This document shows positions 15,071 through 25,250 of a stretch of 64,000 nucleotides of DNA, in pieces. Positions within the stretch are counted from its first letter, which is position 1. Each line of letters begins with the position of its first letter. The notes under the pieces are model-generated. The model saw only the letters and a list, made by a program, of their open reading frames with translations. It had not been told where the DNA came from and did not search any database. The position numbers and the translations under genes were made by a program. Source of the stretch: Babesia bovis T2Bo (lineage: Eukaryota; Apicomplexa; Aconoidasida; Piroplasmida; Babesiidae). Where the stretch lies: assembly GCF_000165395.2 (NCBI RefSeq), contig NC_010575.1, positions 1,721,001 through 1,785,000 of the forward strand, given 5' to 3'.

Positions 15071-15456
15071 TGGGAGTACTTAAAAATCCAATAAACGGTC
15101 TTCACACTATACACATCCGACATTGGAGCAAGCTCGAGCCATTTGTAGCTAGTGTGTAGCTCCTTTGTCTAAATTGACTTGTTATGGTGGTGCCTACGGT
15201 GGCCGCACTTGTAGATTCCACAAATTCTACTTCTGTACTACTAACCACTACACAGCTATAGGAATCTTGCAAGTTTAATGCTGTGAAAGCAACTGTTCAC
15301 GTATGTTCTCGCTTTGGACTGTGTCCAGCTCCAACCCGTGCTAGGCGACGCGATTATTCCGCTTGATATCGCATAGTTGGATTTGGTAGCAATTGGTATA
15401 GCACTTAACTGCTATTAAGTTGGCATCGTACCAAGTATATTTGCTGGATTCGCATT
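15071..15456. other. Divergent intergenic region between pelota and PAM18
   Basis: 386 bp between the start of pelota (minus) and PAM18 (plus), so it must hold both promoters and 5' UTRs. No open frame, repeat or RNA gene was recognised in it. Confidence 0.6.
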
Positions 15457-15732
15457 ATGCCGTGGCCAATTGTTGCCCTAGCGTGCGGCACGGGAGTACT
15501 GCTTGGTAGGTATATGTATCGAGCTGTGTCGAAATCGAAAGTGCTATATGGATTCGAACATAAAATGTCACTGTCAGAAGCCTGTGCAATTTTGAACGTA
15601 TCAGCCACAGCCCCCAAGGACAGAATCAGGGAACATTACAAACAGCTAATGATGAGGAACCACCCAGACAACGGCGGCTCAACGTACCTTGCTTCCAAGG
15701 TTAACGAAGCGAAGGATTATTTGCTAAAATAG
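15457..15732 (+). CDS. PAM18: PAM18/TIM14 J-protein of the mitochondrial import motor
   Basis: Membrane-anchored J-protein that stimulates mitochondrial Hsp70 at the TIM23 channel. 91 residues, single exon, typical TIM14 size. An N-terminal membrane helix (about residues 4-20, [18 protein letters not shown]) is followed by [20 protein letters not shown], corresponding to the family FExxMxxxEA segment. The C-terminal J-domain reads [20 protein letters not shown], then [20 protein letters not shown], with the HPD catalytic tripeptide followed by the NGGS typical of TIM14. The last residues [11 protein letters not shown] match the family KINEAKDxL ending. Nothing is missing. It is the first of several mitochondrial genes in this part of the window. 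Confidence 0.93.
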
Positions 15733-16441: not shown

Positions 16442-17263
16442 ATGTATCTATCTCGCATTTTATGCCATAGGCCTGGTGGTATATTCTTTCCCAGATTCGT
16501 GGCCCCTAAGGTTCATGCATATGCACTCTGGAACTCCACTGTACGATACAACCTGGGCACGACAGTTCGTTGGCATCGGTGGTGGAGGTCTAGATTTATC
16601 CCGAAAGATGGCAGGAGTAGTTCAGGAAATGCTTCTACATTTGTGCGGGATGCTAACTCGACCCAGGAAAACAAAAGGCCCATTCCCATCACTATTCGTG
16701 GCGCCGTTGCAAAGGTGAAGAAAAGATTCACGCGCTATTGGGGATTTAGGAGGCCACAACTTTTATTGTCTACCGTTAAGCGATATTTGTACCGTAAGAG
16801 GTTAACGTATGGTCCAAAGCGACCCTCGCGGCACCGAGAAAAACTACGGCAAATAAAAACTCGGGCGGCTGAAAAGTCAGCGGCAGTAAGTTATCAGTAG
16901 ATTGATATTCATTTCTCCGACAGCTGAAAATAAGTGCCATATTCGCCCTCCGTAAATACGGCAAGCTAGGTGCTGGTATCTATCTAGGGTAGGTCATATA
17001 GATACGATTACACGTGATACAGTGTCTACATCGCAACTTTAGTGCTGATGAACATATTAACGTTTGAAGGCTACGTGTCAAGTGATGACCTAAGGAATCT
17101 ACTAGAGCGAATTAACGTCACGCAGTTCCAGGTTCCCGACATGGACAGTTGGATCGCCAAATTCACAGTGGCTTACATTGCCACTAAGGTAGTGGAGCCA
17201 CTGCGCCTGATACTCTCAGTGCTAATGGTACTGGCAATCAAGCGTGGTGGGAAAAGGGGGTAG
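16442..17263 (+). CDS. FAM210/DUF1279-like mitochondrial protein (copy A)
   Basis: Probable three-exon gene: 16442-16885, 16924-16975 and 17043-17263. Exon 1 encodes 148 very basic residues (Arg/Lys/Trp-rich), which would suit a mitochondrial presequence and matrix arm. Exons 2 and 3 give FALRKYGKLGA, then LMNILTFEGYVSSDDLRNLL, then WIAKFTVAYIATKVVEPLRL and ILSVLMVLAIKRG, the pattern of DUF1279/FAM210 (KKYG ... AYxxxKxxxPLRxxxT/Sxxxx), with one or two membrane helices. Intron 1 is 38 nt with good signals. The exon 2-3 junction is the weak point: the donor that keeps the frame (GTATCT, 16976) removes the residues GIYLG that would extend the domain, while the stronger donor five codons later (GTAGGT) breaks the frame. 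Exon 3 is 96% identical over 218 bp to an inverted copy at 24261-24478. Confidence 0.6.
17043..17260 (+). repeat. Inverted duplicate, copy A (218 bp, FAM210-like last exon)
   Basis: 218 bp matching the reverse complement of 24261-24478 with 9 mismatches counted by eye. Similarity begins just inside the exon and stops abruptly at a run of five G before the TAG stop. Seven of the eight changed codons are synonymous; the exception is Ile to Val. Confidence 0.95.
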
Positions 17264-18019
17264 TGGAACAGATGTTTTATTACCCTCGGATAAATAACGA
17301 AGTATATTCCTTTTAAAAAGCGTTGAAATATGTGCTAGGATTTACCTTTTGCTATAGTTGCACCCGCCAGTGCTGATGGCGAAAGGTGGTACTGGGAAAT
17401 TTCAATTTTAAGGGAAAATCTGAATGAAATTTGCTGAAGATAACTCTACGTGATCTGATAAGGTATGATAATGAAGCCTGATTGTTTCTGCAGCCTTTTT
17501 GTCATAGCCGACGATACCCTCCCAACCTACTCAGCCCGAAGTATAGGAACCAGAACAGATCCATCGAAAAAATAGACATCCATAACTTTCTCTTGTTGTT
17601 GATAAAGGGGAATTATGGTAGTTTGCTCATTTTTATGTTTAGGTTGGATTCACCACCGTGGTGGTCATTCCGTACCACCGGAACTGTATGCCATGGTATA
17701 TCTCTTGGTTCCTTTTTGTATGCTACAGCATAGGTAGTTTTACAACCCTTTTTCTGGCCCCACTATGGATGCCTACCCGCCATATGTGCCATCGGGTCCA
17801 TTTATGGCTACTATACATCAGGGGGGAGGTCAACTGTGCTATTCTGGGTCACCTCCCAGAGAGCAACTTGGTGACTACATTTCACACAAAGGGTACATAG
17901 TATGCTCTAAATAGTCTTTAAAAGTTATGTTAAACATATATCTTAGCCGTGAATAGTTTTAGTACATATTACCTTACCAGATCCACCCAACTGAATCACA
18001 TCGGTGCTCCTGGTCGACG
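17264..18019. other. Gene-free stretch upstream of the mtm-like gene
   Basis: 756 bp. Open frames of 80-83 codons (17482-17733, 17658-17900) overlap each other in different frames, are Pro/Trp/Cys-rich and match nothing I know. The stretch presumably contains the 3' UTR of the FAM210-like gene and the promoter of the mtm-like gene. No repeat shared with 19901-20783 was noticed by eye. Confidence 0.5.
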
Positions 18020-19900
18020 ATGGAGGAAACGGGAGCTGTTATTAACGTTGGCACATCGTTGTTCATTGTGTTGGTGGCCCTTGGTATCGCCGGTTGCATC
18101 GCTCTCTTACTGAATGCAGTACTAACAGGAATCGCTGGTTTAGACTCCTACATGCTGTCCACTGCGTTTGACCACAATGCCAACGCCATCCTGGCAACGG
18201 TAATACTGGGAATACTGGTGATATTACATGGAGTTGGGTACTACTGTCAGTACGTCAAGACACCGCTCAGTAAGTGCCATCTATGGCTACTGGTCACAGG
18301 GTCACTCACAGTCCTGGTAGCCGCCTCAGCCGTACTTATGGTTACCAAGGGTCAAGGATTAGGTCCCCAAATTCTTGGCTACTATAACACTGCTTTCACT
18401 GCAACGCAACTGATGGCACTTATGGCATTTGGTGTTTGTATGTGCAAGTCCGGATGTTTCGGAAAATCTAGCTCAAATGCTAGGATAGTTTTCTATGTAG
18501 TTGCCGGAATATATGCAGCATGGTTGCTTGCATACCTCGCCGCGTGCGCTGCTTATGCGGTAATGTACAATAGAGGACAAGGTGTGAGTCATGCAGTCGA
18601 TGCACAACAAAGGATAACTCAATCCTATAAAAGAATTCCATGCGTCAATTACGTACTACTGATAGCACTGACCTTCAGTGCCTACCAGGTAAACTTTTGT
18701 TGTGTACCTGTCACGGGCACCGACTGGACCTTCCTGTTGCTGTTTGGTACATGTGCCGGTATACTACTATCGGTGTTCATGCATTACCAGGGTGGTAACG
18801 GTGCTTTTCACCACAAGATGGAACACATACTAACTGCATTGGCAGCAATAATCATGGGTTTCATGCTGATGTATAGCTACTTCAAGGAGCCGTTTGCTCA
18901 GGTGGTGCCTGACAGAAAGTATACAATCTGGGACCTCGTATTTATACTGCTGGCTGTAGTACTAGCGGGTATTACTATGGCACTGTTAATCAAGTGGAAG
19001 GGTGATAGTCATAGAGGCGAAGATTGGATCCATTATACCCTTCTATCCGCTATGATGGTATGCACTGCCATAGAGCTTGGGATGCTCCATTTTGGATGGG
19101 CTCGTGGCGGTTCTTCTGGCGTAGTTTGGCAAGCTGTCATGGTAATCTTGGTGCTAGAGTTGGTGGCTACACTTGTCATGGTAGTTATAGATGTATGTGG
19201 TGGTGGTAGTGGTAACGGATACGTGTTTACGGTATCCACGACTGTGTATCCCTTACTAATACTCCACCTATTACTAATGCTGGCCAATGTACTAGTATGC
19301 CACTATCACATGCCATTTCCAGGTAACTACCAGCTGTGGCACTGGAGTTTATCACTGTGGGATACTATGTTAGTACTGCTGGTACTAGAGTCACTAGTGG
19401 TACTGGTAATGGCGATATCAGGGGTGCACCAGCAATATACGTTTCATGGTCTTTATGAGAGTGGCCAAGACAATCGTTGCTATGTCGTTCTCGCTCTACA
19501 TGCCATACTATGTGGCACTGCAATTGGTATAATACACTTCAAGGAACCATTGTCACAGTATTGGTCCAAGGACCAACTGGCTTGTGTAGTGCTCAGTGTA
19601 GTGTCACTAATCTCCTGTCTAGGACTTGCATACGATGGGATGAAACCAAAACCTGGAGAGTCACGCAGTGAACCTGGATTCTACTGCCTAGTAGTGTACG
19701 CAATAATTACATTTGGAGGCGCTCTGTACTATGGCTTCCGTAGTGGCCTTATCCAGGGCAGTTGCTTCACTAAGAAGAGCGATGCCAAAAAGCTACAGGG
19801 TAGTGAAGAGGCAGTGTCAAGCATGGAGAGTACTGTGGATGATGCAGAAGACATCTCGCCCGAAGTAGCGTTACAACAGGATAACACTGATGTAATATAG
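18020..19900 (+). CDS. Multi-transmembrane protein of mtm type, 626 aa
   Basis: Single-exon 626-residue protein, hydrophobic almost throughout, with roughly 14 predicted membrane helices and a short acidic cytoplasmic-looking tail (DDAEDISPEVALQQDNTDVI). No cleavable signal peptide stands out; the first helix starts about residue 11 (FIVLVALGIAGCIALLLNAV). Internal similarity is visible: paired helices are joined by short polar loops, and the loop motif recurs (SYFKEPFAQVVPDRKYTIWD near residue 290 and IHFKEPLSQYWSKDQLACVV near residue 510). This suggests repeated two-helix modules. Architecture, intronless structure and lack of wider homologues fit the multi-transmembrane (mtm) multigene family of B. 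bovis, members of which have been reported to be exported and to alter drug uptake; that assignment is from general resemblance, not alignment. It lies alone between two gene-free stretches, flanked by the inverted FAM210 duplicates. Confidence 0.7.
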   Translation: MEETGAVINVGTSLFIVLVALGIAGCIALLLNAVLTGIAGLDSYMLSTAFDHNANAILATVILGILVILHGVGYYCQYVKTPLSKCHLWLLVTGSLTVLVAASAVLMVTKGQGLGPQILGYYNTAFTATQLMALMAFGVCMCKSGCFGKSSSNARIVFYVVAGIYAAWLLAYLAACAAYAVMYNRGQGVSHAVDAQQRITQSYKRIPCVNYVLLIALTFSAYQVNFCCVPVTGTDWTFLLLFGTCAGILLSVFMHYQGGNGAFHHKMEHILTALAAIIMGFMLMYSYFKEPFAQVVPDRKYTIWDLVFILLAVVLAGITMALLIKWKGDSHRGEDWIHYTLLSAMMVCTAIELGMLHFGWARGGSSGVVWQAVMVILVLELVATLVMVVIDVCGGGSGNGYVFTVSTTVYPLLILHLLLMLANVLVCHYHMPFPGNYQLWHWSLSLWDTMLVLLVLESLVVLVMAISGVHQQYTFHGLYESGQDNRCYVVLALHAILCGTAIGIIHFKEPLSQYWSKDQLACVVLSVVSLISCLGLAYDGMKPKPGESRSEPGFYCLVVYAIITFGGALYYGFRSGLIQGSCFTKKSDAKKLQGSEEAVSSMESTVDDAEDISPEVALQQDNTDVI

Positions 19901-20783
19901 TTTGGTGTACTGTGGTGAAGTGTTTTTAGTCCGTTATTAATCCTGTAACAGTTTTTCTTGCCTGTATCACTAAATTTCCAGATGCAATTTTTGTTAGTCT
20001 CGCCATTCAAAGTGGTTAGAACAATTTTATGTAATACAGGGAGGTATTATCAGCCGCATAACTTATATCCATTTATTATCAGGAGCGTAACTTACCTCCA
20101 TTGTTACACAATACATACAGAAGTAAGGGTACATATAGGTGGTTACCAAAGAACCAGAAAATCGTGTTGCATTTCTTGAGAATGAACATTGCACTCTATC
20201 ACATTAATTATATAGAATATGGGATGGTTACATCTCATGTCGGCGGTATATTGTCTATTTGTGTTACCGCCCTACATGAATTTAGCCCTACAGTGGTTTA
20301 TAATGTGGTGTTATTACTTACCATATTACTTCCTTGGTGCTATGGTATCACAATACAGTATAATAGACATTGCTGTTAACACAACTGCAACATGGCAGTA
20401 ATGGGGAAACCGTTGTGTGTGACCAAACGTAATAAATGCATCACTGTACTTACCGTTATGAGTACGATGCCGGTAGCATATGGCTTATGTATAGGGTCCT
20501 TCAGGTAGCGATGTGCTATGTGGGTAGTTCTACCAAAAGATTAAGGGATGATGGGACAAGCAGTGGTGCTTTCTCTTACGTGTATTCAGTTAATTTCTAT
20601 AGAGTTTTGTCGTACATTCACAATATAGTTTCCCCAGTATGTATGGTAAATAGGCTTATTGAAGCAAAATATCTGTACTTCTGGAACATATAATCTCCGT
20701 GTTGGGGAGCTTTGACTATGAGCTCCAGGTTACCTACTTCCTTTCCATGGTGATGGTGCAAACAATAGCGTGAAACAGTTGGT
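19901..20783. other. Gene-free stretch downstream of the mtm-like gene
   Basis: About 880 bp between the mtm-like stop and the convergent CLEC16A-like stop. A 60-codon hydrophobic frame (20219-20401) and an 85-codon frame (20436-20693) are present, but neither has a convincing start context, splice structure or known domain. The hydrophobic one could be a decayed fragment of an mtm-like gene; I could not show that. Confidence 0.5.
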
Positions 20784-22926
20784 TCATCTCGGTTTGTTCC
20801 ATAGTTCCAGGTCCTGTAAGCACTGTCTAAGTAGATTCGCTGCCTTAACGTGCCGGAGGAATATTGAGAGGGGATCTGATGTATCCACTGAATCAAGCTC
20901 ACCCAGAGGATCCTTAGATATGTCAGTTGAACAACCACTTTCCAAGTCACTAGGCCGAGACCACTCCTCCCGAAACACCTCAGTATGCCTTGGTGTTGCA
21001 ACTGCCATCTCGCTTTCTACTAGCGTTGTGACCATATTGTATCCTGCTTCTAGATGAAACCATATTTCATCCACTATGCGTGGCATTTCATCAGCATTAT
21101 GTTCCTTTAACATGTTTACGCCGTTCTTAACCACGCAACACATGAGGCGTAATACAGGAAGTCTAAGAGTAACTTCACCAACCCAACGCGTTGCTACATT
21201 TAGCGACTGTAGGATAGTTAAACTGGCAACGAAACGTTCCAGTGGTGAAGTGGGATTAATCTGTGAGTGCCTTATGACATTTAGCAGCAGCTTCAGTTTC
21301 GTATCACTCTTCGGAAGCTCACATACGGCCAATCGAATAAATTCGGCCATTATAATATTCAGCAGATAGTCATTGTCCGAAATATCCATATTTTCCGATA
21401 GAGAATCGTTACTTTCATCGCCAAAAACATAGTGGTCCCATGCTTGCATGGATGTAAATATGGATAACGAAGTATCAATGGGTTCGCAACTGCTTGCGTA
21501 ATCTGAACTCTGTTTAGTGCAATGACACAGATGCTCCAGCACATTACGGGGGATAAATGGGCATTGCAGAAGTAATAAAATATATCGCTTCAATGGTCCC
21601 TTACCCATTGAGCATAGGTGGTGTACCAATAGGAAGTAAGATAGTCTACGAGACTCTGTCACGTCATTTGTACAGTCATCGCGCGAAATGGGAGCGCCAA
21701 AAAACTCGCTTTTGTTCCTTGCGTATATACTCATAAGCCCGCTATGCATTAGCAGCTGTTGGTATATTTTGTAAAGGATGGAAATATCCTGCAATTCCTG
21801 TGGTAGGGTTACTGGTACAAGGGCAGTTACTTCCCACTCCACAGCTGACAGCAGTGAGCCTAACAATGGAAAGAGACAGTGGGCTAACATATGTTGCGTC
21901 AGCGCCTAAATGAGTATTTATATGGCTAACTGAGAACCCACCTCAGAGATCTCTGGGTTTCCGAGATCCAGAATATCCTGCAAAAACTGGAATGCGTCAT
22001 CACATTGTACTATAGCTGTGTCAATGTAACCTGATTTATCGGTCAACTCATTGGAATCAACGTGAAGGTGCCTATCAAGTCTACGCCAAGTGTGTCTCAG
22101 GAAGCCCGTGAGTTGCATGATTACTCGTGACTGGGATACCACATAGAGGTTAACTGACGGGTCGTTTACTGTAACAGGTGAATATGCAAATCAATGAACC
22201 TACACCTTAGAATACTCAAAACAATAGTCATTGCATGGGCACGCTTGATACTGTCACTGCTAGACAGAAACTTCAGGGCTCCCTCCAACAGCGGGAAGTC
22301 AGTATTACCCTGGGTATACCATTAATATAATTTTAAACAATGGCTCACCTCGTGAAAGAAAAACTTGATGGTGGTACCATTAATCAAGCTGCTTAGGGTC
22401 TTTAATAAAGACACCGTCCAACTGCTAACTTCATCGGAAGCGTAAATGTTTCGGTTGGTAACTAAATTGTTCATGTAGTTGTTCGAAAGCATATAGTCTG
22501 TGTGGTACTATGAAAGAAGTTTTACTTAACCTACACAACATCCGTTCGTTGTTTATATTGTGTACCAGCATGGACAGCGTCTGCAGAAGTTGGATTCTCA
22601 CCACTTTTACTGGTGTCATTGGCAACTCAGCAGTAAGAAATTCCATCATACGGGACTCACAAAAGTACCTACATGTCTTTTTACTCCTCCTGTGTTAACC
22701 TACTCGAACATGACATCACAGTCATTTCTGTCTCCCCAAATTAGCAGCTCGGGTAGCTGTTTCAACGCAGCGACAACCTCTGGGCATGTTGCCTTTCTGG
22801 CTGCCTGCCGGTTGAGAGCATTGCGGTGAAGTGACCTATATACGTGATGTATTATAAGTGTCGTGTCTACCTCAATCTTTCAAGATTTGTCGTGATATCA
22901 TTCTCTGCGACTACATCTTCGTGCAT
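20784..22926 (-). CDS. CLEC16A/Gop-1-like FPL-domain protein
   Basis: Seven exons: 22926-22871, 22835-22704, 22668-22535, 22497-22349, 22309-22204, 22168-21942 and 21905-20784; introns 35-39 nt; total 1926 nt, about 641 residues. The spliced N-terminal 200 residues match the FPL domain of CLEC16A (ema, Gop-1, plant TT9): LKQLPELLIWGDRNDCDVMF, then EYFCESRMMEFLT, IQLLQTLSMLVHNINNE, LYYMLSNNYMNNLV, SSWTVSLLKTLSSLINGTTI and KFFFHEGNTDFPLLEGALKF. In the family these read ELLIWGDxxD, FFLE, VQLLQTLxIxxxNIxNE, LYYLLSNN, SFLKTLSxxLNxxT and FFxxxxxFPLYxEAxKF. Family members work in endosomal and autophagic trafficking and mitophagy. The C-terminal half is not recognisable. Splicing is strongly supported because each junction restores a family motif. 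It converges on the mtm-like gene and follows the DNAJC11-like gene on the same strand. Confidence 0.85.
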
Positions 22927-23095
22927 CCTTAAGTTTTCGTCGCTGCTGTATGCCACTTAAAACTACATACAGTCCATATGGCACGAGAACAGCTAGGAGG
23001 CACTCCCCATCCGCAATGTGCAGGATATCAGTCTCAAAATAGATCACGTAAGCTAGTCATTACACTAGAAAAATTACACATAACTTCATTTTACC

Positions 23096-24479
23096 CTAAT
23101 GTGTAGAGTCACCATGGACAAGTACCGCAAGGTTACCATCGGCATAAGGTCCCTTGATATAGGAGCCGTATACCCTATGTGTACGCATAGGAAGCTTGAA
23201 AGGTGTACCATCAGATATGGTTACTTCATGTACATCACCCTGTAAGGATATTGAACACGCACATAGACTATTTACCTTGAACAAATATAGAACGTAGAGC
23301 TGTGCATCCACCTCAAAGCATGGCATCAAATCCGACGTTGTCTGCGCATTTTGATTACTATTTAAACCGAGATACACCATTAACACGCATTTAACTTACT
23401 ATTTCTAGGGGATTATAGAATCCTGGTAGAAACGCATATGACATGGGACCACCTGAATTAACATTCAATGTACCCCGTGCACAAAGCAATTGCAATTGCA
23501 CTGTCACATCGATAAATGGCCCTTTAAGGTGCTGTTCAGTAATTGTTTCCATGGAGACAAGTTTGTTAGGTTCCTTGAGACTAAGGTCGCCATATATAGC
23601 CTTTTGTATGACCAGTCCTGGAGAATGCTAGAGATAAAAAACAAGACCTACCTCTAAGGCGGTACTCCTGTCCAACGGATGCGATATAGTTCATTTGGCG
23701 CTCATTGAGAAACTGCATGTATCTCTCCTTGAGGCCTTGTTGCAGAGCTGACATTTGCGCTTGAAGTTGGTCTCCAGTGGAGAATCCATTTTTTATATCA
23801 TATAACACTCGCTTATAATCGTCACAAAGAATTGTGTAGGCCATTTGCACATCATTTAGCAGCGAAGTAGCCGATTGATCCTGACATCTGAACTCTATGA
23901 TAGATAAACTCTCTGCACTCACTTGTCTGGATGTAGTATACGAGAAAAGTGATAGTACGCTTTGCGAACGTCTGACTGCGCACATGTTGGTTCCAGCTCT
24001 AGTATGTCGTATAGAGAAATATCATTACCATTTTGTAGTTTACACCTCCTTCGTTTATATTCCTCTAGGTTGTTAGACAGCTCTGCTGTGTCACTGGGCA
24101 AAGATTGCTCCATTCTTGGGATACCTACAGAGCCAATTATAATACACACTAATACTTAATGATTATACACACCCTGGAGCGCGATGTACTCCAAGGGTGG
24201 TTTTAACTCTATATTAGTTTCATCTACCAGTGCCAGCAACTCCCCACCCGAACACTCATTCCCCCTTTTCCCACCACGCTTGATTGCCAGTACCATTAGC
24301 ACCGAGAGTATCAGGCGCAGAGGCTCCACTACCTTAGTGGCAATGTAAGCCACCGTAAATTTGGCAACCCAACTGTCCATATCGGGGACCTGGAACTGCG
24401 TGACGTTAATTCGCTCTAGTAGATTCCTTAGGTCATCACTTGACACGTAGCCTTCAAATGTTAATATGTTCATCAGCAT
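23096..24479 (-). CDS. DNAJC11-like J-protein, apparently fused to a FAM210-like exon
   Basis: Core gene in five exons from the ATG at 24113: 24113-23923, 23887-23652, 23617-23400, 23341-23276 and 23239-23096 (284 residues). J-domain: ISLYDILELEPTCAQSDVRK, then AYYHFSRILHPDK (HPD present) and MAYTILCDDYKRVLYD. The C-terminal half matches the DUF3395 region of DNAJC11, a mitochondrial outer-membrane and cristae factor: GLVIQKAIYGDL, GPFIDVTVQLQLLC, YAFLPGFYNPLEI and DVHEVTISDGTPFKLP. An upstream exon 24479-24173 carries copy B of the FAM210-like exon. A donor at 24172 and acceptor at 24125 (48-nt intron) join it in frame: ALQG to IPRMEQSLPSD. The fused product would be 390 residues, with membrane helix or helices before the J-domain. 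If unspliced, the upstream frame ends VYNH at 24156. The J-protein part is secure; the fusion is inference. Confidence 0.8.
24261..24478 (-). repeat. Inverted duplicate, copy B (218 bp, FAM210-like exon)
   Basis: Second copy of the FAM210-like last exon, opposite strand to 17043-17260, 9 mismatches in 218 bp. Upstream sequence (24480-24740) shows no trace of exon 1 or 2 of copy A, so the copy is 5'-truncated. Downstream it runs into 88 bp of open frame unrelated to copy A, up to the splice donor at 24172. Confidence 0.95.
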
Positions 24480-24740
24480 TAGGGCTATATAACAATCCCA
24501 TAAAGAGTTAATGTCTACCAGATATTAAGGTACGGTACGTAGCATATGTTATGGTTGTTGTTTGCCAATGCTCGCTCTTTGGGCGGAGCATTATGGGAAT
24601 AGACATTGCTACGTAAATTCATTTTCTAGCGATCATATGTCAATTTCAGCCTATTAATCTGTTAAATGGTGCGCCACCAGATGGGACAATGCGATGCTAC
24701 CGTTTGTAGCGCTCGTTATTCCTGGACAACAAGACTGTTT

Positions 24741-25250
24741 TTATGGGTATTGACTCTGATTAACGTAATACACCGCTTTAACACGCCTCCACACCAGAGC
24801 GCAGTTGTCTTGGATACCCGCAACATGTTCGGTACGATAGCGCCAGAGATCCTCACGTAGCAGTTCTTCCCGAGGTTCTGGTAGCACGTTGACCAAGCGT
24901 ATGTTCCTTACAACATCATGGGTATATTTTACCCTGCCATGAGCCGTGGCGAACAGTGTAGTTGTCTTAGAAGATACTCCTACATTCTCCCCTGGATATA
25001 GCTTAAAGTGCCTGTTCCGAGTCACACCGGGATTTTGTGCTATTGGTTTTCTTTGTTTCACCAATACATCTCCTGGTTTTACATATTCAGCTGCTAGGCG
25101 CTTTATACCGATATGTGCCTTTTGCGTCTGACCTGTAGGCGATGCTCGCGCTGGACGTCGATAGGCAGATACTTTCACCGTTTTGTTCCTACATTGCACA
25201 AAGCAGTAAGCGGCACTGCCTATCGTAGCACAGATCTTCGGCAGTTGCAT
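24741..25250 (-). CDS. Organellar ribosomal protein bL27
   Basis: Nucleus-encoded large-subunit ribosomal protein of bacterial type, 169 residues, single exon. The core motif is clear: IGIKRLAAEYVKPGDVLVKQ, then RNRHFKLYPGENVGVSSKTT and TLFATAHGRVKYTHD, matching bL27 (KxFGGQxVxxGxILVRQRGT..HPGxNVGxGxDxTLFAxxxGxVKF). About 45 residues precede the core (a likely targeting segment; hydrophobic patch near residues 8-18) and a 65-residue extension rich in Arg and Glu follows it, typical of mitochondrial ribosomal proteins in this phylum. The canonical bacterial N-terminal GSxxNGRDSxxKRLGVK stretch is not retained. Mitochondrial use is more likely than apicoplast, but the sequence alone does not decide. 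Its start codon is about 540 bp from the divergent pinin-like gene. Confidence 0.88.
   Translation of the reverse strand: MQLPKICATIGSAAYCFVQCRNKTVKVSAYRRPARASPTGQTQKAHIGIKRLAAEYVKPGDVLVKQRKPIAQNPGVTRNRHFKLYPGENVGVSSKTTTLFATAHGRVKYTHDVVRNIRLVNVLPEPREELLREDLWRYRTEHVAGIQDNCALVWRRVKAVYYVNQSQYP

Follow-up and report, generated by a model that had tools for sequence, protein, structure and literature searches.

A probable 7-kb inversion that broke a FAM210-like gene in its last exon, beside DNAJC11, in Babesia bovis

We analysed a stretch of 64,000 nucleotides from Babesia bovis T2Bo, called the window below (C3:1721001-1785000 of an 8.23 Mb genome in 8 contigs). Among inverted repeats of 40 bp or more, a single one was reported in the window, pairing 17040-17260 with 24261-24481. 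Its core of 218 bp lies at 17043-17260 on the plus strand (copy A) and at 24261-24478 on the minus strand (copy B), and the two copies differ at 9 positions. A search of the 8.23 Mb genome with the repeat returned these 2 sites and no third copy of the duplicated exon. The 218 bp repeat with 9 differing sites that an earlier note on this DNA had described was thus reproduced, both by sequence comparison and by genome search. Scans of the window for tRNA genes and Rfam families gave no matches.

Copy A belongs to a FAM210-like gene on the plus strand. By spliced translation, exon 1 runs from the start codon to the donor (16442-16885, with a single match in the genome), exon 2 is the KYGKLGAGIYLG stretch (16924-16988), and exon 3 (17023-17263) contains copy A and closes with the stop codon TAG at 17261-17263. 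The two upstream exons and the stop directly after the repeated block are as previously proposed. The frame is intact, and its product of 249 residues aligns over the full length with the B. bovis entry P0001 at 93% (17 of 249 residues differ). Like FAM210A/B-like domain proteins, it scores above the curated cut-off for PF06916 (37.9 bits against 26). Copy B, in contrast, reaches only 26.7 bits over profile positions 18-86 of 88 and is missing the first part of the domain. When C-termini were compared, all 5 separate FAM210 proteins, one of which is P0001, ended at the KR of copy A or within one residue of it. The intact FAM210 gene is the one with copy A. As the repeated block starts 20 bp inside exon 3, the duplication is not bounded by the exon; the statement that the last exon was duplicated holds for an inverted duplication of most of the exon, and not for the whole of it.

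Exon 1 of this gene is variable among B. bovis entries, since 14 of the 17 differences between the window and P0001 fall before residue 139. Upstream of the FAM210-like gene, 15409-15732 holds a small Pam16/J-like gene (PF03656, 39.4 bits), which makes two J-type genes within 9 kb.

The second of these, a DNAJC11-like J-protein gene, lies at 23096-24113 on the minus strand and has five exons (24113-23923, 23887-23652, 23617-23400, 23341-23276 and 23239-23096). Its product matches a B. bovis entry at 97%. By Pfam, the B. bovis entry P0003 (S6C8V8) carries the J domain PF00226 and the DnaJ-like C11 C-terminal domain PF11875, the two domains of DNAJC11-type J proteins; beyond its extra start, comparison with the window protein gives 8 differences in 284 residues. 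Compared with DNAJC11-type J proteins in general, the piroplasm form is short, and no added N-terminal domain is demonstrated in B. bovis. These domains, together with PF06916, uphold the family assignments that had been made for both genes. Among other species, all 6 separate J-protein models start at a methionine aligned with 24113. At 24135-24137 the window has ATT where P0003 has its start methionine, a strain difference in a possible start of the J protein. We considered a sixth exon and dropped it; 7 of 8 other J-protein sequences in the alignment end within a few residues of the exon 5 stop, and the exception, P0009, diverges earlier.

Two further genes lie between the copies. A multi-transmembrane gene unit at 17417-19816 on the plus strand (a CDS at 18020-19900 plus some 600 bp upstream of it) is repeated at two other genome sites, C5:11264-13646 and C3:169637-171976, with 80-83% identity. 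It begins 156 bp past the end of copy A, a member of a multigene family beside single-copy genes. Its protein has 33 matching stretches in the genome, with some genes giving two. Such families are described as lineage-specific expansions in piroplasms in PMC7561165; this one may be of the mtm or the tpr-related kind. On the minus strand, open reading frames mark a large gene at 20784-22926, whose exon structure and start are approximate. A Pfam search with two of its open pieces gave no match.

Upstream of copy B no FAM210 exons could be recognised, as the earlier note had held: genome searches with exon 1 and exon 2 gave no second match. Copy B is also missing the opening residues of exon 3. 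A spacer of 147 bp (24114-24260, minus strand) separates it from the start codon of the J protein. The frame of copy B stays open for 34 codons and meets the stop TAA at 24158-24156; from there to the ATG of the J protein, this frame has no further stop. Codon use in the 34-codon tail scored 0.245 bits per codon against training genes drawn from the same window. None of 33 open intergenic pieces scored 0.245 or more, against 2.7% of 74 open pieces in a wrong frame and 29% of 113 pieces of coding sequence. We ruled out that the tail is a piroplasm-wide ancestral FAM210 C-terminus, given the common end of the 5 separate FAM210 proteins. Its codon use leaves room for a possible FAM210 extension found in B. 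bovis only.

According to PMC4148916, B. bovis 5' UTRs have a median length of 152 nt. With a spacer of 147 bp, the leader of DNAJC11 may therefore begin in or beside copy B; it would start near the end of copy B, and the promoter would lie inside copy B. The promoter motifs ATGGGG and CCCCAT, described in the same paper, are both absent from 24114-24760, so they lend the promoter idea no support.

Of the 72 codons common to copies A and B, 8 are altered; 7 of these changes are synonymous and the remaining one is I to V. The earlier note took this as a sign that both copies were kept as protein. The differences are indeed mostly synonymous, and a protein-coding copy B is not demonstrated by them. 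With all 9 changes neutral, the probability of no more than one amino acid change is 0.0002. It rises to 0.10 with the changes split equally between a neutral copy B and a constrained copy A, and to 0.39 with 70% of them on the constrained copy A. At the I/V site, copy A of the window and B. bigemina have I, and copy B and P0001 have V; from these residues no direction can be given to the change.

The DNA flanking copies A and B is unrelated on both sides. Three flank alignments were no better than alignments of shuffled sequence, and homology ends abruptly at both edges of the duplicate. The residues YIA occur in both flanks, and we considered whether homology extends upstream of copy B; this was rejected on the same comparison with shuffles.

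The arrangement in relatives appears to be different. In Babesia sp. Xinjiang, J and C11 domains come after a FAM210 domain within the single model BXIN_1735. In B. duncani, 35 residues of model P0014 match FAM210 at 63-66% and are followed by DNAJC11. In B. gibsoni the two genes carry consecutive tags (FAM210, BgAZ_206620; DNAJC11, BgAZ_206630), and in a further piroplasm relative each was found on one 12,828-bp contig, which we took as the same contig. FAM210 is therefore adjacent or close to DNAJC11 in 4 of 4 relatives with a readable position, where adjacency was read from gene models, tags taken as map order and equal contig size, not from aligned genomic DNA. Order and strand can be read only in the two merged models, from Xinjiang and B. 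duncani, and in both FAM210 comes first. In B. bigemina and T. equi, which are outside the 4 readable species, both genes are on megabase-size contigs; in the remaining species one of the two genes was found. Because of the adjacency in the 4 relatives, the older order is most likely one with DNAJC11 after FAM210. In the window, 7 kb separates the two genes, which point in opposite directions, and each end carries the exon that was cut.

Taken with the older order, this map puts copy B at its old place, the pair having been split by an inversion. Copy B is then a stranded FAM210 last exon at its ancestral site upstream of DNAJC11, which goes against the earlier proposal that it was newly carried onto the J-protein gene. 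We infer that an inversion of about 7 kb, with a break in the last exon of FAM210 and staggered ends, duplicated most of that exon at both ends of the segment, and we consider this very probably the correct explanation. The inverted segment, drawn from the gene order of the relatives, would be the 7000 bp between breakpoints at 17261-24260. The unrelated flanks beyond the 218 bp are what is expected at breakpoints, and we counted them for the inversion. An inverted duplicate is found at both ends of one segment, as an inversion with staggered breaks requires.

The events may have run as follows. In the B. bovis lineage before the inversion, FAM210 and DNAJC11 would have stood in tandem on the same strand. 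One breakpoint would have fallen inside the last exon of FAM210. The staggered break ends would have been filled in, or a repair fork would have switched templates, and about 218 bp of the exon would thereby have come to lie at both ends in opposite orientation. Copy A would have stayed with exons 1 and 2, leaving the FAM210 protein whole and ending at a stop codon provided by the new junction. Copy B would have stayed upstream of DNAJC11, on the strand of DNAJC11. The old exon may also have served as the start region of the gene after it, so that a break duplicating this exon would have spared both genes. More tentatively, copy B would persist because it carries a putative leader or promoter of DNAJC11, which is more likely than survival as a protein.

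Not everything fits the inversion. Had copy B kept its old 3' flank, the stop codon of FAM210 should lie directly after it, yet 34 open codons with coding-like use follow. The far end of the segment is also less certain. Its outer neighbour is mL27 (24744-25250). In T. orientalis mL27 is 3 tags from DNAJC11 (MACJ_001495 and MACJ_001498). In T. equi it is 30 tags from FAM210, in steps of ten (BEWA_024700 and BEWA_025000), and in Babesia sp. Xinjiang it is 53 tags away (BXIN_1682 and BXIN_1735). Thus mL27 is close to DNAJC11 in just 1 of the 3 species with tags. The far end may have undergone further reshuffling.

A similar structure is described for inversion O8 of Drosophila subobscura in PMC5080602: a fragment from one breakpoint only is duplicated in inverted orientation and found at either end of the flipped segment. 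There too, one gene copy is intact and one is truncated. Unlike O8, the segment in B. bovis is just about 7 kb, it is in an apicomplexan, and the copies are still close in sequence. A further difference is that the leader of the neighbouring gene may lie in the B. bovis duplicate, and the uninverted chromosome, for B. bovis, is reconstructed from relatives. Among titles and abstract openings (subscription papers were outside the search), we found no report of the B. bovis inversion. No paper in the literature searched combined Babesia with either FAM210 or DNAJC11, or Babesia bovis with DUF1279.

The same final map would be predicted by two steps, in which an inverted copy of the exon first arose at the far site and recombination between the inverted repeats then flipped the segment. 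Inverted repeats can recombine, and the multi-transmembrane gene unit, repeated elsewhere, shows that duplicative insertion has taken place nearby. However, this origin takes two events where one is enough, and no third copy of the exon was found in the genome. We consider it unlikely.

Another explanation, proposed by the earlier note, is that the inverted copy of the last FAM210 exon is spliced in frame onto DNAJC11 and yields a new protein with membrane helices ahead of the J domain. The splice path itself is present in the sequence. Past the repeated block, copy B stays open for 88 bp up to a GT at 24172; a splice from there to an AG that sets the next exon start at 24124 would keep the frame and remove a GT-AG intron of 48 nt. 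Copy B and the J protein share one frame with a single TAA between them, and the tail has coding-like codon use. The 7 synonymous changes among 8 altered codons also speak for a fusion if all 9 changes are neutral, and the fused models of Xinjiang and B. duncani could be real. However, of 5000 shuffled spacers, 56% also had an in-frame splice path or read-through, whichever of three minimum intron lengths was applied, so the path onto DNAJC11 is no better than chance. The synonymous changes are less telling if only half of them arose in a neutral copy B. Copy B is without exons 1 and 2 and lacks the opening residues of exon 3. The 6 separate J-protein models of other species begin at the methionine aligned with 24113. 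The fused models look to us like run-ons: in Xinjiang the usual end of FAM210 is joined to the start of the J protein, and in B. duncani the FAM210 domain is only partial.

The start of S6C8V8 bears directly on the proposed splice. It begins MGSVGIPRMEQ and so has 24137-24125, which the splice would remove, as coding sequence. As the residues GSVG are encoded across the proposed acceptor, this stretch was not removed in that sequence. We take the S6-type B. bovis UniProt entries, S6C8V8 among them, to come from the Texas-strain full-length cDNA set that PMC4148916 describes. With in-frame paths common by chance, exons missing and S6C8V8 reading through the acceptor, the chimeric protein is not supported. 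A FAM210-DNAJC11 fusion gene in B. bovis is unlikely, and a rare fused isoform is possible. Given the order of FAM210 and DNAJC11 in the relatives, an inversion scar fits better than the birth of a new gene architecture that had been suggested. The locus looks like an ordinary rearrangement scar and not like a new fused gene.

Within the 72 residues of the common block there are 3 differences between copy A and P0001, 2 between copy B and P0001, and 1 between the two copies, a comparison of small numbers. As the copies are no further apart than entries from different strains, the inversion may be about as old as the split between the strains, or the arms exchange sequence. P0001 ends exactly at the stop of the copy A junction, which hints that the other B. 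bovis strain carries the inversion as well. It is also conceivable, and in our judgement quite unlikely, that FAM210 and DNAJC11 form a conserved, partly co-expressed mitochondrial pair that is one protein in some Babesia. The 7-kb segment of B. bovis would then still flip or exchange sequence, and strains would differ between a FAM210 with its own stop and one that reads on towards DNAJC11.

If copy B were a random dispersed duplicate of the exon that came to lie beside DNAJC11 by chance, the existence of the repeat would be accounted for and nothing else. This is very improbable, as copy B lies directly upstream, on the same strand, of the gene that is the neighbour of FAM210 in 4 of 4 readable relatives. 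An assembly artefact is hardly credible, with no point found in its favour: the copies differ at 9 sites, their flanks are unrelated, and the C-terminus of P0001 falls on the same residue, at the stop provided by the copy A junction.

The inversion, as we read it, makes a compact case in which a small rearrangement through the last exon of one gene, beside another gene, left both usable. Both would still be usable because the broken exon was duplicated. Scars of such inversions can be mistaken for exon shuffling. For annotation, BXIN_1735 and the DNAJC11 model of B. duncani are merged gene models that probably need splitting. In Babesia sp. Xinjiang, BXIN_1682 (P0090) likewise has a mitochondrial-type mL27 merged with a hydrolase-like protein, and is likely a run-on like BXIN_1735.
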